This document shows positions 8,589-39,831 of a stretch of 64,000 bases of DNA, one piece after another. The stretch is from positions 62,001 through 126,000 of the forward strand of contig NZ_OBEJ01000003.1 in assembly GCF_900215575.1 (NCBI RefSeq), given 5' to 3'. This DNA is from Natronoarchaeum philippinense. Lineage in GTDB: Archaea > Halobacteriota > Halobacteria > Halobacteriales > Natronoarchaeaceae. The notes under the pieces were generated by a model. The model was not told where the DNA came from. It worked only from the letters and a program-made list of their open reading frames with translations, and made no database searches. Numbering within the stretch: the stretch's first letter is position 1; each line of letters starts with the position of its first letter. The translations under genes and the position numbers were made by a program.

Positions 8589-9923
8589 CTACCGTCGCTC
8601 GGGCACCATCTCGACCGGCCCGTCCGGCCGCAGCGTGATCGACGGCCTGAAGCCGAGATTTGCGACGGCCGATTCGACCGTCCACTCCTGACAGATCGTC
8701 GCCAGCACCAGCCGCGCCTCCAGCATCGCAAACCGGTCGCCGATGCAGCGCCGCGGCCCGCCGCCGAAGGGGAAGTACGCGAACGCCGGCAGGTCCTCGC
8801 GGAACTCGTCGGTCCAGCGCTCCGGGCGGAACTGCTCGGGGTCGTCGTAGAACCGAGGATCGCGGTGGAGCACCCACTGCTGGAACGTGACGGTCCGGCC
8901 CTCGGGGATCCGGTAGCCCGCCATCTCGATGTCCTCGGTCGCCTCGCGGAGGAGGTCGTAGACGGGCGGGTAGACCCGCATCGTTTCCTCGATGACGCGC
9001 TCGGTGTAGGGCAGGTCGTCGAGATCCTCGACCGTCGGCGGCCGGCCGCCGAGCACGTCGTCGAGTTCGGCCTGCAGTCGGTCGCGTGTTCCGGGATTCT
9101 CCGAGAGCAGGTGCAGGGCGTAGGTCAGCGCCAGCGCGGTCGTCTCGTGGCCCGCGAGCAGGATCGTGATCACTTCGTCGCGGATGCGCTCGCGCGGCAG
9201 GTCGTCGTCGCTGGCCAGCAGGAGCGAGACGACATCGCTCGCGTCGCCGCCAGCCCGTTCGTGCTTCTCGATGATGCGCTCGGCCACGGCGTGCAAGTCG
9301 TCCAGCGCCGCGTTGAACCGCCGGTTTCCGGGCGTCGGCACCCACCGCGGCACGTCGACCGGCCGCCGGATCGACGACGAGGCCCGGTCCATCACCGTCT
9401 CTAACGCCTCTCCGATCGCTTCTTCCTGTGCCCGGATGTCCACATCGAACAGCGCCTGCGCGGCGATCTCGACGGTGAGGCTCATCATGTCCTCGTGGAT
9501 ATCTCGCTGCTCGCCGGGCGTCCAGTCGGCCAGCGCGCGCTCGGTCGCATCGGTCATCTCAGTCGCGTACGACGCCAGCATCTCGGGGTAAAAGGACGGC
9601 TCGACGGTGTGGCGCTGCGAGCGCCAGAGCTCGCCCTCGCTGGTCAGGAGACCGTCGCCCAGCACCGGTTTGAGCGTCTCCATAAACTGCTCGCCCTTGA
9701 CGAACGCGTCGTTGTCGTCGACGAGCACGCGCCGGACCAGTTCGGGATCGCTCACCTGCACGAACTGCTCGCCGCCGATCTCGTACGCCGCAACCGGGCC
9801 GTACTCGCGGGCCAGATCCTCGAAAAAGGCCAGCGGGTCCTGTACGTACTCACGGGTGTTGCCCAGTAGCGGGATGCCGTCGGGACCGGGCGGGGCGCCG
9901 CGGCCGGACGCGGAGCGTTGCAT
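8589..9923 (-). CDS. cytochrome P450 (canonical active site)
   Basis: 444 residues, soluble type with no membrane anchor. Key P450 signatures are all present: proline-rich start [13 protein letters not shown]-helix AGHETT (257-262) with the acid-alcohol pair, K-helix ExxR (E313-R316), the PERW motif and the haem ligand loop [10 protein letters not shown] (Cys393). It should activate O2 with electrons from a ferredoxin and reductase. The sequence resembles bacterial CYP102-domain/CYP4-like fatty-acid-type P450s, but the substrate is unknown. Monocistronic; upstream 140 bases contain only promoter-like sequence. Confidence 0.93.
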
Positions 9924-22717: not shown

Positions 22718-23785
22718 CTACACCTCCCGCTCGACGGCGAACTCGGTGAACGCGGCCAGTTCGCGCGCGGCGTCGGCGTCGAGATCGACGGCGTCGAGAT
22801 GATCGAGTGCGCGATTTTTTAGTTCGCGGGCCCGCTGGCGAGCGTAGTCGATGCTCCCGGATTCGTCCAGAATGTCGATACACTCCTCGATTTCTCGGCG
22901 GTCGGTGTCCCCCGCGTCGAGAATCGCTTCCAGTCTCGCAACGTCTTCGGGGGGCGCGTGTTCGGCGGCGTGGATGACCAGCAACGTCTTCTTGCCTTCC
23001 CGGATGTCGTTGCCCGCCTCTTTGCCGAACCCCTCGACTGCCCCGCGCGTGCTCTCGATGTCGAGCACGTCGTCGCTGATCTGGAACGCCAGCGACAGGT
23101 CTCGTGCCCAGTTCGAGACGGCACGTTCGGCCGCCGGCGGCTGTTCGGTAAGGATCGCGGCGAGCCGGGCGGCGAGTCGGCCGAGGCTGCCCGTCTTGCA
23201 CGAACACATCTCCAGATACCGGGCTTCGTCGATCCGGATCTCCCGCTCGTTGTGCCAGTGGATGTCGAGGCTCTGGCCCAGATGCGCTCGGTTGAGCTCG
23301 TCGATGATCATCTCGTAGGCAGCCAGTCGAGTGTCGCCGTCCACGTCGCCGGGGTTCCGGCGCAGAATCGTCATCGGCAGGAAGTACAGGGCGTTGCCGG
23401 CGTTCAGCGCGATGTCGACTCCGTACTGCTCGTGGATCGCCGGTTCGCCGCGGCGCATCGACGCCCCGTCTTCGACGTCGTCGACGAGTAACGTTCCCGT
23501 GTGGAGCAGTTCCGGCACGGCGGCGTAGGGCGCGTACGGCTCGGGATCCGCTCTAAACCCTTCGACCAGCGTTCTGAACACCGTCGCGCGCCACCGCTTT
23601 CCGCCGCGGTCCAGTAGTTCCCAGACCGGGTCCGATAGCGATCGCTGGACGGCTTCCGTATCGTACTCGTACGTCGCCGCTCCGAACGTCTCTGCGAGGT
23701 ACTGCTCGTCGATCGTCGTCGGTAGGACGGCACCGATCGCCTCTGTGACACGCTCTTCTCCTGCCGTTCCCACGCCGTGGCTCAT
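22718..23785 (-). CDS. polyprenyl diphosphate synthase (trans-isoprenyl, GGPPS-like)
   Basis: 355 residues of the trans-prenyltransferase family, which adds isopentenyl diphosphate units to an allylic primer in the cytoplasm. GGKRWR (61-66), the first Asp-rich motif DDVED (102-106) with RRGEPAIHEQ, and the second Asp-rich motif DDVLD (238-242) are intact. The residue five positions before the first motif is Gly97 and the fourth is Thr98. Small residues there generally allow products longer than C20, so a C25 or longer product is possible (inference). The gene opens the terpenoid locus and is divergent to the membrane protein at 23922. A TATA-like CTATATT is close to the start (23795-23801), so a slightly later start is possible. 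Confidence 0.9.
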   Translation of the reverse strand: MSHGVGTAGEERVTEAIGAVLPTTIDEQYLAETFGAATYEYDTEAVQRSLSDPVWELLDRGGKRWRATVFRTLVEGFRADPEPYAPYAAVPELLHTGTLLVDDVEDGASMRRGEPAIHEQYGVDIALNAGNALYFLPMTILRRNPGDVDGDTRLAAYEMIIDELNRAHLGQSLDIHWHNEREIRIDEARYLEMCSCKTGSLGRLAARLAAILTEQPPAAERAVSNWARDLSLAFQISDDVLDIESTRGAVEGFGKEAGNDIREGKKTLLVIHAAEHAPPEDVARLEAILDAGDTDRREIEECIDILDESGSIDYARQRARELKNRALDHLDAVDLDADAARELAAFTEFAVEREV

Positions 23786-23921
23786 ATTTTCTTTCTATAT
23801 TCTCAGCAAGAAAGTGTTTCGATCCGTCGGCTCGGCGGACACCTGCGCATCTACATCTGTCTGTAAACCGCTTAAATTATAAGTTATCTACTCGGAATAT
23901 TCTTGCACGGTGTCCAAACCG

Positions 23922-24530
23922 ATGGTTACAGAAAACAGTTCTGCCGGCTCTCTCTCGGAGGTATCGCCACTCAAAGCACTCGACCTGATGACTCAGCCTC
24001 GCTTTCTTCTTCCGACGGCGTTTCCGTTCATCGTCTATCTCGGGTGGACGATGGACTCGTCGGCGTCGCTGTCGGCGCAGTTGCTCGCGGCGCTGGGCAT
24101 CGCACTCGGCGGGTGGTTCGGCGCGATGGCCGTGGAGTACCAGCCGTTCGTCCCGCTCGAAGACGGAACGATCAACGAGATTCAGGGCGGCCTGTTGTTC
24201 GTCGTCGCCGCGGTGATCTACGGCGTCTGGAGCTACAACGCTTGGCCGGCGGTCGTGCAAGGGTTCGGTCTCGTCTCCGGCGTCGCCGTGGCGCTGTGGC
24301 TCCCGGCGAGACGCGTCCTCAACCTCTCGGGTGGCGTCATCTTCCCGACGGCTCTGTTCGTGTTTCTGACGCTACAGGATCTCCGGCTCGCCCCGCTACT
24401 GGTGGTGCTTGCGATCCGCGTGCCCGTCGCGCTCACGATCGAAGATCTCTCGCCTCTCGAGACGACAGTCGGACTGACGCTGGGAAGCATCTCGGTGCTG
24501 ACCGTTCTCGCACTCACGCCGCTCGGGTGA
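23922..24530 (+). CDS. multi-pass membrane protein of the terpenoid locus, unknown function
   Basis: 202 residues from ATG 23922 (MVTENSSAGSL); a GTG at 23910 is an alternative start. About six membrane helices are predicted, with one conserved-looking polar loop (EYQPFVPLEDGTINEIQGG). No UbiA Asp-rich motif and no recognised family. An AT-rich TATA-like element (TTAAATTATAAG near 23872-23883) precedes it. It is placed between the polyprenyl synthase and the RND exporter, so a role in handling a hydrophobic intermediate is possible, but that rests only on context. Confidence 0.7.
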   Translation: MVTENSSAGSLSEVSPLKALDLMTQPRFLLPTAFPFIVYLGWTMDSSASLSAQLLAALGIALGGWFGAMAVEYQPFVPLEDGTINEIQGGLLFVVAAVIYGVWSYNAWPAVVQGFGLVSGVAVALWLPARRVLNLSGGVIFPTALFVFLTLQDLRLAPLLVVLAIRVPVALTIEDLSPLETTVGLTLGSISVLTVLALTPLG

Positions 24531-27510: not shown

Positions 27511-28824
27511 CTACCGTCGAACGGTCGCGCGGTGTTTCGTCTTCGGGCGGAGCGTCATCGACGGCGTGAACTCGATCTCGCCGTCGACCTCGACGTCGAG
27601 GGTGACGTTGCCGACCATCTCGGCCAGCGCGATGATCATCTCCTGTCGAGCGACTTTCTTTCCGGGGCAGAACCGCGGCCCGCCGCTGAAGGGGAAGTAC
27701 GCGAACTGCGGCCTGTCGGCGTCGCGCTCCCACCGACCGGGATCGAACGCCTCGGGGTCGTCCCAGAACCGCTCGTCGCGCTGGGGCACCCACTGTGGCA
27801 TGATGAACTGCGTTCCCTCGGGGAACTCGTACCCGCCGATGGTGACCGGCTCCGTGGCCTCTCGATTGACGCCGACCGTCGGCGGGTATAGCCTGAGCGT
27901 CTCTGTGATCACGTTTCGCGTTTGGACCAGTTCGTCGATGTCTTCGGGATCGAGCCCGTCATCGCCGGCGACCGCCTCGTACTCGGCTTCGAGCGACCGG
28001 CGAACCGACGGATGCTCGTCCAGCAGGCGCCAAGCATGGGTGAGCGACCCGCCCGGCGACGAGGTGCCCGCGAGTAACAACCCGACCAGATTGTGCCTGA
28101 CTTCTTGCTCCGAGAGCACGCCCTTGTCGCTGGCCTCCAGCAGGAGCGAACACACGTCCTCGCCGGACTCGCCTTGGCGTCGCTTCTCGATGCACTCGCC
28201 GACGTAGTCGTTCAGCGCCCGCACCTTTTTCTCGAAGCGCCGGTCCGTCGGCGTCGGGATCCAGTCGGGGAGATATCGACCAAGGCGGCGGAAGTTCGCG
28301 CGATCGATGAGCGAATCCGAGGCGGCGATGATCACGTCCTCGTCGCCGCGCACGTCGATTCCGAGGAGCGTGTCGGCGAGCATCCGCATCGTCGAGACGC
28401 GCATCTCTTTGTGTAGGTCGAACTGCTCGCCGTCGTCCCAAGCGTCGATGGACGCGGTTACTTCCGCGATCATCCGCTCTCGATACGCTTCGACGGTGTC
28501 GCCGGTGAACGCCGGGTTGATCGCTCTCCGGCGTCGCTGCCAGTCGTCGCCGGTCGACATGTTCACCGCGTGGTCGGTGATCCCCTGAAAACTCGCGCGC
28601 TGGGCGGGGCCGATCGTGAACTGCCCGTGTTTTTTCACCAGTATCTCCTGTATCTGGGCCGGTCCGGTGACGAGATAGAACGATTGGCCGGGGTACTCCA
28701 ACCTGACGATGTCGTCCTGCTGTCCCCACTTTTCGATCGCGCTGATCGGGTCGCGCGCGTACTCGATCCCGTGGCCGAACACCGGTGTTCGTGCCGGCGT
28801 ATGGACTGATTTTGCATCCGACAT
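27511..28824 (-). CDS. cytochrome P450 with altered I-helix, terpenoid locus
   Basis: 437 residues. The K-helix ETLR (308-311) and haem-ligand loop FSGGPRFCPG (Cys386) are intact, so it should bind haem. The I-helix motif, AGxET in most P450s and intact in the other P450 of this window, reads AGTSSP (252-257): the acid and the threonine used for O2 proton delivery are both missing. P450s lacking this pair often rely on substrate groups, peroxide, or catalyse rearrangements. The N-terminus has no anchor. It sits between the RND exporter (convergent) and the class II cyclase (divergent), pointing to tailoring of a cyclic isoprenoid (inference). Leaderless promoter upstream. Confidence 0.92.
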   Translation of the reverse strand: MSDAKSVHTPARTPVFGHGIEYARDPISAIEKWGQQDDIVRLEYPGQSFYLVTGPAQIQEILVKKHGQFTIGPAQRASFQGITDHAVNMSTGDDWQRRRRAINPAFTGDTVEAYRERMIAEVTASIDAWDDGEQFDLHKEMRVSTMRMLADTLLGIDVRGDEDVIIAASDSLIDRANFRRLGRYLPDWIPTPTDRRFEKKVRALNDYVGECIEKRRQGESGEDVCSLLLEASDKGVLSEQEVRHNLVGLLLAGTSSPGGSLTHAWRLLDEHPSVRRSLEAEYEAVAGDDGLDPEDIDELVQTRNVITETLRLYPPTVGVNREATEPVTIGGYEFPEGTQFIMPQWVPQRDERFWDDPEAFDPGRWERDADRPQFAYFPFSGGPRFCPGKKVARQEMIIALAEMVGNVTLDVEVDGEIEFTPSMTLRPKTKHRATVRR

Positions 28825-28983: not shown

Positions 28984-30924
28984 ATGGACTGGAATCATGG
29001 CCGGAGATCGTTTCTCGGTAGCTTGACCGCCGCACCGTTCGTAACGACACCCGCGGCCGGACAACAGTCGGCGGTCGACGACGCCGTTCGGCAGGCCATC
29101 GAACGCTCCCGGTCGTATCTCCGCGACGCCGCGACCGACGGCGATTTTGCCCACTGGGATACGACGGTCGGCTACGGCGAGTACGGCGACCTGCGATACA
29201 CGGCCTACTACGCCCTCTTGCTGGAACGAGTCGGCGCGCGCGAGGCGATCAGGGACCGGTGTATCGGCCATCTGCTCGACCGCCGCTCCGCGGACGGCGG
29301 TTGGGGCGACGCCGTAACCAACTTCAGCGCGCTCTTGCTCTTCGAACTGATCGACGACGCCGACCACGCCGCTGTGATCGAGGACATCCAAGACGAAATC
29401 GACCGGCTGGGCCACTCGCTGCTTCCGTCCGACGACCGAGACGACGCCGGCGTGCGGGTGTCAGAGCGGTTCCGCGTCCGCCTCTGCTACGCGCTGTTGT
29501 CCGATCGCTACGCCTACGACGAGCTGTTCCCGGCCGACCGGCCGGTCGAAATCGGTCGCCTGCTGTCGCTGACCCCGGCGTTCGACGGGACGGCGATTTC
29601 GGCTCGGGAGAACATGAGCCGGCCCATCCACATCGGCCCGCTCTCGGCGTACTTCCTGCTCGGCGCCGCGGCGCGGGACGACCCGCTCGGGGAAGACGAG
29701 CAGGTGCTCGCAGACGCGTTCGAGAACGTGCTTCGGAGCCGCCGACTGCCCAACGGCGCTTGGAACACGTCGCCGACGACGATCTTCGGCGCTCTGGCCC
29801 TCGCCGAACGCGGATTCGATCTCTCGGACGACGAGGTCCGGCTTCCCGTCGATTGGCTCGCCGACAACCGCGTGACTGAGGCCGGACGCGTCGAGATCTG
29901 GCGTCTGCCCGTCTGGGACACCGGCCTCGTGATCGAGGCGCTGCTCGAATCGGGGCTGTCGCCGTCGGATCCCCTCCTTCGGGACGCAGCCCGGTGGCTC
30001 TACCGGGCGCGCACGCCGCAGGTGGACGTGAATCCGGTCGACGCCGAACTGGATCGCTCGCCCGCGCCGTTCCGGCGTCACCACGGCGACGGATGGGGCT
30101 ACATGCCACACGCCTTTTCGGACTGGGACGACACCGGCCTCGCCATCAGTGCGCTGTCGGCGTTCGCCGGTCCGGCGCTGGACGAACAGACGGCGTTCCT
30201 GCTCGACGTACAGAACCGGGATGGAAGCTGGTCGGCGTACACGACCGACTACGAGCCGTTCGACGACGCCGCTGCCGAGACGATCCGCTCGCGGGTCGGA
30301 GATGGGCTCTACCGAGTCTTTTTCGGGTACGTTCCCTCGCCCGACGTGACCGGCGGTGCGCTCGCCGCGCTCGGTAAACGCGGGCACACGGTTCGCGACA
30401 GCGAGGCGGTGCGTGATGCCGTCGATTATCTCACGGACGCCACCGCGGACAACGACCTGTGGCTCGGCGTCTGGGCGCAGGGGTTCACCTACGGGACGGC
30501 CCGCGTGCTCGGTGGCCTGCGACGCGTCGGCGTCGATCCGAGCCGGGAGTACGTCCAAGCGGCAGCCCAGTCGCTGATCGAGCAGCAAAACGACGACGGC
30601 GGCTGGGGAGAAGCCACCAGATACGACCCCGCCAGATCGACGCCGGGGAACGTTCCGTACCAGTCTGCCGACTCGACGCCGACCCAGACCGGCTGGGCGC
30701 TGCAGGCGTTGCTGTACGCCGGCATTTCGCCGGACAATCCCGCGATTCAGGACGGGATCGACTATCTGCTTCGGATGCAAGACTCGACCGGCGCGTGGAC
30801 GCCGGACCGCGTGATGTACAACTTCGGTGGCCCCGGCTACAGCACCGACGCGACCACGCAGGCGGCCGCGCTCGCGGCGCTTGGCTCGTACGCATCGGCT
30901 CGCGCGGCATCGACCGACGACTGA
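28984..30924 (+). CDS. squalene-hopene-cyclase-like class II terpene cyclase with Tat signal
   Basis: 646 residues, full SHC length. The N-terminus (GRRSFLGSLTAAPFVTTPAA, residues 6-25) is a twin-arginine export signal. SHC landmarks then appear in order: PVWDTGL (309-315), the protonating-acid motif DWDDT (380-384; canonical DxDDT), DGSWSAYTTDYEPFDD (413-428), WAQGFTYGTARVL (497-509), NDDGGWGE (536-543), STPTQTGWALQAL (564-576) and a last QW repeat with GAW and GGPGYS. These alpha-barrel cyclases protonate a terminal alkene or epoxide and cyclise linear isoprenoids at the membrane face. An intact acid triad suggests activity; the substrate (squalene, a longer polyprene or a prenylated acceptor) is unknown. 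The Tat signal would place catalysis outside the cytoplasm, unusual for the family. Confidence 0.92.
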   Translation: MDWNHGRRSFLGSLTAAPFVTTPAAGQQSAVDDAVRQAIERSRSYLRDAATDGDFAHWDTTVGYGEYGDLRYTAYYALLLERVGAREAIRDRCIGHLLDRRSADGGWGDAVTNFSALLLFELIDDADHAAVIEDIQDEIDRLGHSLLPSDDRDDAGVRVSERFRVRLCYALLSDRYAYDELFPADRPVEIGRLLSLTPAFDGTAISARENMSRPIHIGPLSAYFLLGAAARDDPLGEDEQVLADAFENVLRSRRLPNGAWNTSPTTIFGALALAERGFDLSDDEVRLPVDWLADNRVTEAGRVEIWRLPVWDTGLVIEALLESGLSPSDPLLRDAARWLYRARTPQVDVNPVDAELDRSPAPFRRHHGDGWGYMPHAFSDWDDTGLAISALSAFAGPALDEQTAFLLDVQNRDGSWSAYTTDYEPFDDAAAETIRSRVGDGLYRVFFGYVPSPDVTGGALAALGKRGHTVRDSEAVRDAVDYLTDATADNDLWLGVWAQGFTYGTARVLGGLRRVGVDPSREYVQAAAQSLIEQQNDDGGWGEATRYDPARSTPGNVPYQSADSTPTQTGWALQALLYAGISPDNPAIQDGIDYLLRMQDSTGAWTPDRVMYNFGGPGYSTDATTQAAALAALGSYASARAASTDD

Positions 30925-30971: not shown

Positions 30972-31784
30972 CTATCCGGCGCTCACGTCGCCGCTTCTCG
31001 ACCGAAAATCCGTCTCCAGCGTCCCGTAGAACTGCAGCGACGCCAGATGAGCCAGCAGCAGCGCCACGACCAGTAGGCTCCCCGAGACGGCGGCGAGCAC
31101 GAGAGCGCCGAGCGCTTTCAGCGTGATGCCGAGGCGCTTCGTCGACCGCTTCCCGACGAGACAGGCGAGCGTCTGCTTGCCCGCCTCCCGGTCGCCTTCG
31201 ATGTCTTTCGCGTTTCGCATCTCCAGTCCCGCGAAGACGATCAGGAACCAGCAGCAAAACAGCACTGCGCCCTCTCGGCGTCCGAGCGGGTACGACGCGA
31301 TCCGACCGAAGATAAACACGATCTGGTACGCCCACGCGAACGCGACCGCACACGAGTCCAGCGGCACCGAGACCGTCTTGATCTCGTCGTAGAGAGCCAG
31401 TACGGCCAGCGGGACGTGGCCGAGTAAGACGGTCGCCAACCTGGCAGCGTCGACCGGCGGCGCCGCGACGAACAGCGAGAGCTCGAACAGGAGCAACGCC
31501 GCCGCCGCGGCGCCCAGCAACTCTCGCTCGTACGCTTCGACCAGCGCGGTCCTGTCGGGGTTGTTGATCCGGTCCTCGTCCGTAATGAGCAGCCGGTCGA
31601 CGATGTACACGAACGCGGTCAGCGCCCCCATCGTCACGAACCCCACGCCCGCCGCTGTCGGGGGCTCCCCCAGTGCGATGGCCGAAATAGCCAGAATGAG
31701 CGCCGAGTTGACGACTAGGTACAGGCTGCAACTGACGAACAGGTTGTAGCAGTCGTGCAGAAGCTGCCCGTTCCGGTTCAGCAT
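30972..31784 (-). CDS. divergent UbiA-superfamily prenyltransferase-like membrane protein
   Basis: 270 residues with seven to eight membrane helices. The second UbiA Asp-rich motif is clear: NAKDIEGDREAG (D194, D198), normally binding Mg-diphosphate. The first motif, usually NDxxDxxxD, is degenerate: VDRLLITDEDRINNPDR (D63, D69, D71). Family members transfer prenyl groups to aromatic or glycerol acceptors, and a few act as membrane terpene cyclases. Placed at the end of the terpenoid locus, convergent with the class II cyclase, it is a candidate to join the prenyl chain to an acceptor or carry out a first cyclisation. A GGTTATAAGC TATA-like element (minus strand, about 31855-31863) lies 75 bases upstream. 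Confidence 0.82.
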   Translation of the reverse strand: MLNRNGQLLHDCYNLFVSCSLYLVVNSALILAISAIALGEPPTAAGVGFVTMGALTAFVYIVDRLLITDEDRINNPDRTALVEAYERELLGAAAAALLLFELSLFVAAPPVDAARLATVLLGHVPLAVLALYDEIKTVSVPLDSCAVAFAWAYQIVFIFGRIASYPLGRREGAVLFCCWFLIVFAGLEMRNAKDIEGDREAGKQTLACLVGKRSTKRLGITLKALGALVLAAVSGSLLVVALLLAHLASLQFYGTLETDFRSRSGDVSAG

Positions 31785-36371: not shown

Positions 36372-36545
36372 GGGTCCGGGTTCGGGCCCGACCCACCTAT
36401 GTTCCCCGGACGCGTCTCGACGCTGTCTCCGTTCCTGTCTCGCCGCCGTCGTCCGGTAGCGACGCCGATCCCATTGGAATCTGTCTAAAATTAGAAGAAA
36501 TAATACTTCGTGAATGTTTTATACTCAGATAGGTGGTGTGAGGAC

Positions 36546-38642
36546 ATGAGACGTAGTACGCACGTCGCCACGCTCGACTCGCTCGTCGACGTGCCGATCG
36601 CCGACGGTGGTCGGCGGCGTCCCGACGCCGACGAGGCGACCGTCGACGACGCAACGCCGTCCTCACATCCCGGACCGCCGCAGTTCGTGGCCGTCAACGA
36701 GACGATCGAGGATCCCAACGGCAACGATCAGGAAGACCGCGACGCGCTGGCGCCGCGGAACCCTGTCGCCGACGCGACCTACTCGTGGTCCGTCGTCGAC
36801 GCGCCCGCCGACAGCGAGGCGACCGTCGGTGACGACCCGATCGTCGGCTTCGATCCCGACGTTCCCGGCGAGTACACGCTCGCGCTGGACGCCGACGACG
36901 GGCGCCACGAACTGACCGTCCGGGTGTTTCCCCCCGAAAATGAGGACGACCCGCGACCTCGCGTCGAACTTGACGCCGACGTGGTCGGCGAGCAGGTCGT
37001 GCTCACTGCCACCGCAACGACGCCGCCGGCCAACTCCCAGCTCGATCCCGACATCGACGTGGAGCTGTACGTCGACGACCGCGACCGGGACGCGCTGACC
37101 GACGCCGGCAGCGTCCTCTCGGCCGCCGAGATCGACGAGCCGGTTCGGATCCACGCCGTCGCCGCCGGCCGCCGGTACAGCGTCGCCGACTCGATCCGGC
37201 TGGTTCCCGACGGCGACTCGGTGTCAGTCGAACGTCCCTACGACCCGCCGTCGTGGCTCGACGACGCCGTCTTCTACGAGATCTTCACCCGCCGGTTCCC
37301 CGATCAGGACGATCCGACGTTCGACCAGATGGCCGAGCATCTCGATCACCTCGACGAACTGGGCGTCGACGCGCTCTGGCTGACGCCCTTCGTCGACGCC
37401 TACAGCAGTTTCGGCACCGACGACGACATGGGCGGCCCCCACGGGTACGACGCGCTCGATTACTTCTCGGTCGATCCCGAACTCGGGACGATGGCCGACT
37501 TCGAGGCCTTCGTCGACGCCTGCCACGAACGCGACATCAAGGTCGTGTTCGATCTCGTGGTCAACCACACGTCGATCCGCCACGAGTTCTTCCAAGCCGC
37601 TTCTGACCCCGACCACGAGGACCACGAGCGCTACCGCGACTGGTACCGCTGGGAAGACGAGGACGAACTCGTTCCGGACACGTACTTCGGCTGGAGCAAC
37701 ATCCCGAACCTCAACTACGAGAATCCCGAGGTCCGGGAGTTCGTCCTGTCGATCGTCGACTTCTGGGTCGACAAGGTCGACGGGTTCCGCTGCGACGTGG
37801 CGTGGGGCGTCCAGCACTCGTTCTGGAAGGAAGTGTACGATCGCGTCCAGTCGGTCGACGAGGACTTCCTGATGCTCGACGAGTCGGTGCCGTACTTCGC
37901 GGACTTCTCGGAAGGCGAGTTCCACATCCATCACGACGACCGCCTCCACGAGGCGCTCGGCATGGCTGCCGATGGCGACGCCGACGCCGTGCTCGACGCC
38001 GTCGAACGCCGCGCGAACGTCGGCGTCCCCTCGTATCGACCCTTCCTCCAGTACGCCGAGAACCACGACCTCGATCGCTTCCTCGCCGAGCACGGCCGGG
38101 CAGCCCAGATGGCCGCCGGCGCCGCGACGTTCACGCTCCCCGGCAACCCGATGCTGTACTACGGGCAGGAAACCGGTCTGGAGGGCTACCGCGATCCGAT
38201 GAACTGGGGCGAGTTCGACGAGGAGCTGTACGACTTCTACCGCTCGCTCGTCGACGCACGCAAGTCGATTCCGGCGCTTGGCAGTGACGCCGGCATCGAG
38301 CGCGTCCCGTTTTACTCCGAGTCCGATCGCGTGCTCGCGTTCTCGCGGGTCGCCGACGATCAGCGCGTCGTCGTCGTCCTCAACTTCGCGGAGGGCTCTC
38401 GCACCGTGCGCCTCGGCTCGTACGTCGAGACGACCGATCTGCTGACCGACGCCGAGCTCTCGCCGACCGAACGCGACGACGGACTGATCGAGTTCGAGGT
38501 CGAAACGGTGGCCGTTCTCGAAGCCGACGAGCCGCCCGCAACCGGTCCCGAACTTGACGCCGGCGACTCCGACGACGCCCGCGAGTTCGACGCCGAGGAC
38601 GGCCTCGCTGCCGTCACCGGCGACGACAGCACCGAGTCCTGA
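36546..38642 (+). CDS. GH13 alpha-amylase-family glycosidase, cytoplasmic
   Basis: 698 residues with no signal peptide. Residues about 30-220 form an N-terminal beta-sandwich (PKD/Ig-like, with SWSVVDAPADSEATVG and GEYTLALDADDGRHELTV). The GH13 barrel begins at about residue 230 (YEIFTRRFPDQDDPTFDQMA). Conserved region I is DLVVNHTS, II is GFRCDVAW with nucleophile D417, III holds acid/base E446 (LDESVP), and IV is ENHD with D508. It should hydrolyse or rearrange alpha-1,4-glucans, maltodextrin being the likely intracellular substrate. A TTTTATAC box (36517-36524) indicates a leaderless transcript. The next gene is an exported glucan-related protein. Confidence 0.93.
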   Translation: MRRSTHVATLDSLVDVPIADGGRRRPDADEATVDDATPSSHPGPPQFVAVNETIEDPNGNDQEDRDALAPRNPVADATYSWSVVDAPADSEATVGDDPIVGFDPDVPGEYTLALDADDGRHELTVRVFPPENEDDPRPRVELDADVVGEQVVLTATATTPPANSQLDPDIDVELYVDDRDRDALTDAGSVLSAAEIDEPVRIHAVAAGRRYSVADSIRLVPDGDSVSVERPYDPPSWLDDAVFYEIFTRRFPDQDDPTFDQMAEHLDHLDELGVDALWLTPFVDAYSSFGTDDDMGGPHGYDALDYFSVDPELGTMADFEAFVDACHERDIKVVFDLVVNHTSIRHEFFQAASDPDHEDHERYRDWYRWEDEDELVPDTYFGWSNIPNLNYENPEVREFVLSIVDFWVDKVDGFRCDVAWGVQHSFWKEVYDRVQSVDEDFLMLDESVPYFADFSEGEFHIHHDDRLHEALGMAADGDADAVLDAVERRANVGVPSYRPFLQYAENHDLDRFLAEHGRAAQMAAGAATFTLPGNPMLYYGQETGLEGYRDPMNWGEFDEELYDFYRSLVDARKSIPALGSDAGIERVPFYSESDRVLAFSRVADDQRVVVVLNFAEGSRTVRLGSYVETTDLLTDAELSPTERDDGLIEFEVETVAVLEADEPPATGPELDAGDSDDAREFDAEDGLAAVTGDDSTES

Positions 38643-38736
38643 CCCGCACCTGTCTTCCGTGCTCACCGGCGTTGCTGCTGCATCTGTGTCGAAATAATTC
38701 ATAATATTTTTATGCTCATCTTGGGAGTGTGGTATC

Positions 38737-39831
38737 ATGGACCGAAGACAGTACCTGAGCGGGCTGGTTGCAGCGGGCGGACTGGCGGTTACGGGCGTCT
38801 CCACGACGGCCGCACAGTCGAGTGCGATCGCGTCTTGGGAAGATCCCCAGGGCGACGACGCCGGACCCGGGAACTACACGTACCCGACGAGCAGCGAGAT
38901 TCCCGAAGGCGAACTCGACTTGGCGTCGTTCACCATCGGCACCGACGGCGACCGATACACGTTCGACTTCTCGTTCCACAGCGAACTCACGAACAACTGG
39001 GACGGCGCGAACGGGTTCTCTCACCAAGTGCTCCAAGTGTACTTCAAGAACCCAGACGGCAGCGGCGGTTCGACCGAGATGCGGAAGGGCATCAACGCGA
39101 CGCTCGAGTCCAACTACCACCACCGCTTGATGGTGACGCCGTTCCCGAGCGAGGTTCCTGCCGTCGTCGAGGATGCAAGCGGCAACGTCGTCAGCGAGGA
39201 CGTGTCCATCTCGACGACCGACGCCAGTACGATCCGGGTGTCGATTCCCCAGTCCGTGATCGGCTATCTCGAGAGTGCTAGCCTCGTCCCGATCGTCGCC
39301 GGCTGGGACGGCTACGGCACCGGCGGTATCCGCGCGCTCAAGGAGAGCGCTGGCGAGTGGTCGTTCGGCGGCGCCAAAAACGACAACGCGCCCGTAATTA
39401 TCGACCTCGTCACGCCCGAAGGCACCAGCCAGAGCGACGCGCTGTCGTACTCCAGCGACGCCAAAGCGTCCGTCCCGTACCTCTCGATCGGCGGGAGTTC
39501 CGACGGGGGTAGCTCCGATGGCGGCTCGGATGACGGCAGCTCCGACGGCGGCAGTTCGGACGACGGCGGTTCTGACGACGGTAGCTCCGATGATGGCAGT
39601 GGCTCGGATGACGGAGGATCCAGTGACGACGGCAGTTCCGACGACGGCGGTTCGGATGACGGCAGCTCCGACGACAGCGGCTCCGAAAGCAGCTCGGACA
39701 ACGACGGGAGCTCCGACGACGGGAGTTCCGATAGCGGCCTCCCCGGCTTCGGTCTCGGCGTCGGTCTCGTCGGTGCGGCCGGCGGTGCGCTCGCGGCGCG
39801 GCGTCGCGGTGAGGACGAAGACGACGCCTAG
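38737..39831 (+). CDS. Tat-exported, PGF-CTERM surface protein with glucodextranase-C-like domain
   Basis: 364 residues in four parts. A Tat signal (MDRRQYLSGLVAAGGLAVTG) is followed by a beta-rich domain (residues about 28-255; WEDPQGDDAGPGNYTYPTS, FSHQVLQVYFKNPDG) that resembles the C-terminal module of glucodextranase/pullulanase proteins. Then comes a low-complexity Ser-Asp-Gly linker (about 256-335) and a PGF-CTERM sorting tail (GLPGFGLGVGLVGAAGGALA plus RRR). The tail is the substrate signal of archaeosortase A, which cleaves and lipid-anchors the protein, so it ends on the cell surface. A likely glucan-binding partner for the neighbouring amylase. Confidence 0.88.
   Translation: MDRRQYLSGLVAAGGLAVTGVSTTAAQSSAIASWEDPQGDDAGPGNYTYPTSSEIPEGELDLASFTIGTDGDRYTFDFSFHSELTNNWDGANGFSHQVLQVYFKNPDGSGGSTEMRKGINATLESNYHHRLMVTPFPSEVPAVVEDASGNVVSEDVSISTTDASTIRVSIPQSVIGYLESASLVPIVAGWDGYGTGGIRALKESAGEWSFGGAKNDNAPVIIDLVTPEGTSQSDALSYSSDAKASVPYLSIGGSSDGGSSDGGSDDGSSDGGSSDDGGSDDGSSDDGSGSDDGGSSDDGSSDDGGSDDGSSDDSGSESSSDNDGSSDDGSSDSGLPGFGLGVGLVGAAGGALAARRRGEDEDDA
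39500..39736 (+). repeat. degenerate SDDGSS-type coding repeat
   Basis: About 25 tandem imperfect 9- to 12-base units encoding Ser-Asp-Asp-Gly-Ser variants form the linker of the surface protein. This is coding low complexity, not a DNA array such as CRISPR. Confidence 0.8.

Follow-up and report, generated by a model that had tools for sequence, protein, structure and literature searches.

Class II terpene cyclases are taken to be intracellular, and the characterised squalene-hopene cyclases (SHCs) act at the cytoplasmic face of the membrane. A gene of Natronoarchaeum philippinense raises the question of whether this chemistry can also take place on the other side of the membrane, as it predicts a class II cyclase that begins with a Tat export signal and is encoded close to a lipid exporter. 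If such a cyclase is exported alongside a lipid exporter, formation of a terpenoid skeleton outside the cell becomes possible. We analysed the gene in its setting, a window of 64,000 nucleotides (contig NZ_OBEJ01000003.1, positions 62,001 to 126,000) from a 3.16-Mb draft genome, the sampled relatives of which belong to Halobacteria. The features of the window that bear on this question are collected in Table 1.

Table 1. Coordinates of the predicted exported cyclase, its sequence features, and neighbouring genes in the window.
Feature	Position	Strand	Basis
Polyprenyl diphosphate synthase (three such genes genome-wide)	22718..23785	-	Profile match
206-aa membrane protein, no Pfam/NCBIfam family	23910..24530	+	64% ortholog adjoins Natronoglomus MMPL
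MMPL/RND exporter (HAE3/HpnN-like), 874 aa	24814..27438	+	Pfam MMPL 1.5e-36, Patched, sterol-sensing
Cytochrome P450, divergent from cyclase gene	27511..28824	-	Profile match; 79% ortholog adjoins Natronoglomus cyclase
Class II terpene cyclase (SHC fold), predicted exported	28984..30924	+	PF13243 E=6e-44; AlphaFold pTM 0.83; Foldseek top match 2sqc, TM 0.71
Tat signal peptide MDWNHGRRSFLGSLTAAPFVTTPAAGQ	28984..29064	+	Sequence, Tat pattern; twin Arg codons 29002-29007; cut likely near AAG/QQ
Catalytic DWDD (D380, D382, D383 = AaSHC D374, D376, D377)	30121..30132	+	Sequence alignment
G458, at AaSHC H451 position (second shell of catalytic acid)	30355..30357	+	R or H in 28/30 homologs
UbiA-family prenyltransferase (motif KDIEGDREAG), convergent with cyclase gene	30972..31784	-	67% ortholog adjoins Natronoglomus cyclase

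The open reading frame starts with ATG, encodes 646 amino acids, and is present in a single copy in the genome. Pfam recognises the SQHop_cyclase_C domain (PF13243), and the sequence relatives in the PDB are SHCs and oxidosqualene cyclases only. In the AlphaFold model (30-row alignment, mean pLDDT 78.7), residues 1–21 are of low confidence and unstructured. A Foldseek search with this model ranked the SHC of A. acidocaldarius (AaSHC) first (E=2e-20), followed by human oxidosqualene cyclase, drimenyl diphosphate synthase, Rv3377c, ent-CPS, Tpn2, and MstE. With its DxDD motif in a two-domain alpha-alpha barrel, the protein belongs to the class II superfamily (SHC fold); as modelled, it is a full-length class II cyclase and more than a mere toroid fold. 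Repeats of the QW type (QxxDGGW) are present at residues 100–107 (RRSADGGW), 410–416 (QNRDGSW), 535–541 (QNDDGGW), and 599–605 (QDSTGAW).

A sequence-only reading of the locus had described the protein as following SHCs landmark by landmark. The landmarks themselves were located exactly, with PVWDTG at residues 309–314, DWDDT at 380–384, NDDGGWGE at 536–543, and QTGWAL at 568–573. The description holds for the C-terminal half and was overstated for the N-terminal half, for which Pfam gives no match at the proper place. The name squalene-hopene cyclase is not justified either: the score against the SHC equivalog model TIGR01507 is 123.9 bits, far under the curated cut-off of 431 bits, the equivalent of AaSHC H451 is Gly, and an ortholog in another haloarchaeal genome (G065) carries NWDD in place of DWDD. 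Its fold is nevertheless that of an SHC, and it probably works in the same way.

Residues 1–28 of the cyclase read MDWNHGRRSFLGSLTAAPFVTTPAAGQQ, in which twin arginines at residues 7–8 (GRRSFL) are followed by 22 uncharged residues with a peak hydropathy of 1.24. The N-terminus matches our own simplified Tat pattern, used in place of TatFind, of twin Arg, hydrophobic residues at +3/+4, and then an uncharged, mildly hydrophobic stretch. The same pattern matches 8 of 145 gene models in the haloarchaeal loci analysed, one of them certainly falsely (a glycyl-tRNA synthetase); a chance match is of the order of 1%. A stop codon lies 54 bases upstream of the start, and no ATG or GTG downstream in frame removes the signal yet keeps the fold. 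The only candidates downstream in frame are two TTG codons, one within the signal (residue 14) and one within the fold (residue 79). The earlier claim that an intact DxDD cyclase carries the Tat signal GRRSFLGSL is thus borne out by the reading frame, the motif, and the twin arginines with their uncharged run, and the concern that the signal might lie upstream of the true start is answered by the lack of any alternative start that would yield the complete fold minus the signal.

The signal pattern is retained in the orthologs from Natronoglomus (TRRTVLGGA) and G065 (TRRRFLAGS), whose N-termini are otherwise unalike; with the window protein, this makes three Tat-signal cyclases from three families. 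The H. pellucida ortholog lacks a signal, and its chain starts at the start of the fold, which identifies the additional N-terminal residues of the other orthologs as the signal. Given that 39–55% of haloarchaeal secreted proteins are exported by Tat (PMC2945643), the route is ordinary and the cargo is the unusual part. Elsewhere in the window (36510-39831), a gene for a MalA-type alpha-amylase is followed by one beginning MDRRQYLSGLVAAGGLAVTGVSTTAAQ, another clear Tat signal.

The cyclase gene was found in 5 of 391 haloarchaeal genomes, and repeating the class-wide search with the protein of genome G276 as query gave the same sample. Including Halorussus caseinilyticus, found later, six haloarchaeal carriers were seen in all, among draft genomes. 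In the cyclase tree, the five haloarchaeal cyclases form one deep clade (100/100), the Halorussus protein being outside the sample. The clade is deeply divergent (34–65% identity); G276 branches off on one side, followed by the signal-less protein of H. pellucida and lastly the Tat trio. Since the H. pellucida cyclase has no signal, export is not a property of the whole branch. Closely similar DxDD cyclases with a DNDD motif and no signal are encoded in a Thermococcus MAG (L013) and an Archaeoglobus MAG (L014), a similarity that reflects either recent transfer or a binning error.

The cyclases of G276 and of a Halorussus plasmid (NZ_CP119811), which are 75% identical to each other, have 692–693 residues and no twin arginines. 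Both begin with a strong hydrophobic stretch unrelated to the Tat signals and end with a transmembrane (TM) segment and a basic tail, RRYWR or RRWRK. By the positive-inside rule, a basic tail after a C-terminal TM segment places the body of the protein outside. The N-terminus would serve as a signal or an anchor, and we are unsure of the exact anchor. A lipoprotein reading of the G276 protein, with AAGC as the lipobox, was rejected, as the Cys is Ile in the Halorussus protein. Each of the two cyclases has 18 N-X-S/T sequons (5.9 expected for G276 from shuffling), an excess that in G276 extends beyond exported proteins, since its polyprenyl synthase also has some. Two non-homologous export devices within one cyclase family cannot be explained by chance resemblance to a signal. 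Among 48 scanned relatives, a clear N-terminal export signal was present in two, the Natronoglomus record (L011) and a protein of Kineothrix (L061). Taken together, these sequence comparisons make it very probable that the window cyclase is exported.

We then considered whether the exported protein would be an enzyme. All 30 homologs of the window cyclase keep the Asp residues of the DWDD motif; within the haloarchaeal clade, only D382 and D383 are invariant, as D380 is Asn in the G065 ortholog. D454, W311, Y419, and W497 map onto AaSHC D447, W312, Y420, and W489, respectively. A basic partner (His or Arg) for the catalytic Asp was not found in the window cyclase, which has G458 at the H451 position, where the Natronoglomus cyclase also has Gly, and Val at the position of AaSHC R488. 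The G065 ortholog has Asn at the H451 position and Arg in place of two active-site Trp residues, W311 is lost in both G276 and G065, and G276 lacks an equivalent of D454. The loss of the H451 equivalent, of the first Asp in G065, and of W311 in G276 and G065 may point to a weak acid or an altered enzyme. A weaker acid would suit a substrate already activated as an epoxide, like that of oxidosqualene cyclases, and the adjacent P450 could supply the epoxide.

The same substitutions, namely Gly at the H451 position, NWDD and the Trp-to-Arg changes in G065, and the absence of W311 and D454 in G276, also lend weight to a different reading, in which the protein is an exported pseudoenzyme of SHC fold that is no longer a cyclase and binds lipid received from the MMPL exporter. 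However, D382 and D383 have stayed invariant across the haloarchaeal clade despite its divergence, and the window protein retains D380, D454, W311, W497, and Y503. We consider a pseudoenzyme unlikely, and the window protein is likely to be a catalytically active class II cyclase.

What such an enzyme might act on is suggested by its neighbours. In Natronoglomus, a member of another family, the cyclase is surrounded by orthologs of the window's MMPL (66%), P450 (79%), UbiA (67%), and 206-aa protein (64%) in a changed order; P450 and UbiA orthologs of similar closeness were found in none of the other carrier genomes searched. The window MMPL has MMPL and sterol-sensing domains and scores below the HpnN and BstA equivalog cut-offs. 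The polyprenyl diphosphate synthase of the window may be housekeeping, and its membership of the cluster is unsure; the polyprenyl synthase in the G276 operon is only 32% identical to it, and the UbiA proteins of the window and G276 are not orthologs. A second cytochrome P450 of the window (8589-9923) is ~36% identical to the cyclase-adjacent one, and the genome has four P450 matches.

An MMPL gene adjoins all five exported cyclases (5/5) and is not found beside the signal-less H. pellucida cyclase. In G065, the two genes share a strand, and ~90 bases separate the end of the MMPL gene from the start of the cyclase gene. The MMPLs of the Tat trio form one clade of the MMPL tree (SH-aLRT 100), and that of G276 lies elsewhere, so the pairing of cyclase and MMPL arose at least twice. 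Since MMPL is near-universal (386 of 391 genomes, with about two strong matches per genome), co-occurrence across whole genomes is uninformative, and only neighbourhood and tree inform. The nearest cyclase-less MMPLs (L125–L128) have no matching terpenoid neighbours at those loci. These MMPLs, the closest to the cyclase-linked clade, adjoin a conserved, divergently transcribed gene of 224–228 aa (MKR..VTVDPDAAP...), possibly a regulator.

Halorussus (L161:6351-18989) and G276 (L009:3254-16088), from two families, have in common a block of at least nine genes on one strand that are 71–83% identical. The order is amidohydrolase, methanogenesis-marker-12 homolog, hypothetical protein, ABC ATPase and permease(s), cyclase, MMPL, polyprenyl synthase, and UbiA, and the first 4 bases of the Halorussus cyclase gene lie within the gene before it. 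That both share this block, in one case on a plasmid, points to lateral transfer of the pathway as a whole. The marker-12 homolog and its partner gene adjoin the cyclase in three haloarchaea (L009:12701-14303, L008:11284-12821, and L161:8009-9617), among them H. pellucida (L008), where the signal-less cyclase is without MMPL and UbiA.

Exporters of this type could act before or after cyclisation. HpnN-type RND exporters are believed to pick lipids from the outer leaflet, and the window genome has two squalene/phytoene synthase homologs; both points would suit an active exported cyclase whose substrate, for example squalene free in the bilayer, needs no exporter, with the MMPL removing the cyclised product from the outer leaflet. 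The sister-branch operon, with its polyprenyl synthase and UbiA, argues instead for a dedicated prenylated substrate and not bulk squalene, and we regard product removal as improbable. We consider it fairly likely that the substrate is a lipid handled by the adjacent UbiA and MMPL.

A parallel arrangement is found in Bacillota. Kineothrix alysoides encodes a single 1177-residue chain (L061:9311-12844) that combines a cyclase with a permease: a Sec-type signal and a complete SHC domain with DNDDT (PF13243 E=4e-88) are followed by a linker, a TM segment, a MacB core, and an FtsX permease. The predicted TM count puts the cyclase outside. Around the fusion are genes for UbiA, two B12-radical SAM enzymes, a radical SAM enzyme, methyltransferases, and a LolD/MacB-type ABC ATPase. 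The fusion is present in 2 of 299 genomes of Kineothrix's family, and the L147 protein (genome G493) is 85% identical to that of L061 over the cyclase part. In the cyclase tree, the L061 protein is not part of the haloarchaeal clade; its branch is long, and its exact place is unsure. We found no description of the Kineothrix SHC-MacB fusion in the open-licence PMC papers searched, and a terpenoid cluster of this type in Lachnospiraceae is apparently undescribed. With the haloarchaea, Kineothrix indicates that UbiA, an exporter, and an exported cyclase recur together in unrelated lineages.

It is very improbable that the RR stretch is no working signal, or that the chain is kept inside as an ordinary cytoplasmic-face cyclase and the MMPL exports what it makes, in the manner of HpnN and hopanoids: the cytoplasmic-face location of characterised SHCs, the signal-less H. 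pellucida ortholog, and the suitability of an MMPL for exporting a cyclised product would fit, but the Tat pattern in three divergent N-termini, the non-homologous signal and C-tail of the sister branch, the signal and permease fusion in Kineothrix, and the lack of an alternative start codon all speak against it.

On balance, we lean towards an extracytoplasmic class II cyclase that is exported by Tat and would cyclise a prenyl lipid on the outer side of the membrane. Inside the cell, a linear prenyl lipid would be made by a polyprenyl diphosphate synthase together with UbiA; in the window genome, the P450 possibly oxidises it as well. The cyclase would fold in the cytoplasm without a cofactor and then be exported in folded form by Tat. 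The MMPL (or MacB) would bring the prenyl lipid to the outer leaflet, or take it from there or hand it on. At the outer face, D382 could serve as the general acid that protonates the far end of the lipid, starting a proton-initiated polyene (or epoxide) cyclisation cascade. The suggestion of the sequence-only reading that polycyclisation is moved to the cell exterior is therefore sustained in part: export is supported by Tat signals in three families, the unrelated signal and C-tail, and the co-located exporters, and exterior cyclisation would further require both an active enzyme and a substrate that gets to the outer face.

More tentatively, and as something possible that falls somewhat short of probable, extracytoplasmic polycyclisation may be a distinct, convergent route in haloarchaea (by Tat, or by a Sec-type signal with C-tail) and Bacillota (by a MacB-type fusion), in which a UbiA-made prenyl lipid is exported and then cyclised outside. 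If true, the skeleton-forming step would proceed in near-saturated salt without a cofactor, by a cyclase tolerant of extreme salt, and haloarchaea would have a means, not known from the group, of making cyclic surface lipids. Bulky, rigid polycycles are a problem to carry across a membrane, and whether forming the rings outside solves it could then be tested simply.

A search of the open-licence PMC literature found no paper on an exported SHC-type or DxDD cyclase, or on a haloarchaeal one, and comparison with known systems is thus with parts of the proposed arrangement. The window cyclase resembles AaSHC (PDB 1sqc/2sqc) in its whole fold, the DxDD motif, residues W312, D313, Y420, D447, and W489, and the QW repeats. 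It differs in its signal peptide, in its low identity (20% in the structural alignment), in a divergent N-terminal half, in its TIGR01507 score, and in the replacement of H451 by Gly and R488 by Val. MstE (PDB 6sbb-6sbg), which like other enzymes of its type cyclises prenylated aromatics, is also a class II cyclase and a Foldseek match to the window cyclase; its chains as solved have ~350 residues, and export is not known for it. MstE acts on a UbiA-type prenylated substrate, the substrate being named in PDB titles. The combination of a class II cyclase with UbiA prenylation is known for meroterpenoids (MstE), with cyclisation inside as far as is known. The bacterial hopanoid system (shc + hpnN) likewise pairs a cyclase with an HpnN/MMPL-type RND exporter; its cyclase has no export signal, and cyclisation again takes place inside as far as is known. 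The HpnN exporter of that system moves finished hopanoids to the outer membrane (PMC12583986).

Two systems share predicted export. A Streptomyces protein of cyclase-type toroid family (candidate 8) has a Tat signal and a C-tail, as reported in PMC10924467; it is on record by the family name 'terpene cyclase/mutase family' only and does not belong to the six Tat C-tail proteins confirmed in that study. The SCO2321 family (NCBIfam), with which the candidate is to be compared, has a model of 405 positions, which is not a full two-domain cyclase. The Kineothrix SHC-MacB fusion is alike in that an exported DxDD cyclase is coupled to an exporter near a UbiA gene. Unlike the haloarchaeal cyclases, it has a Sec signal and forms one chain with its MacB/FtsX permease.
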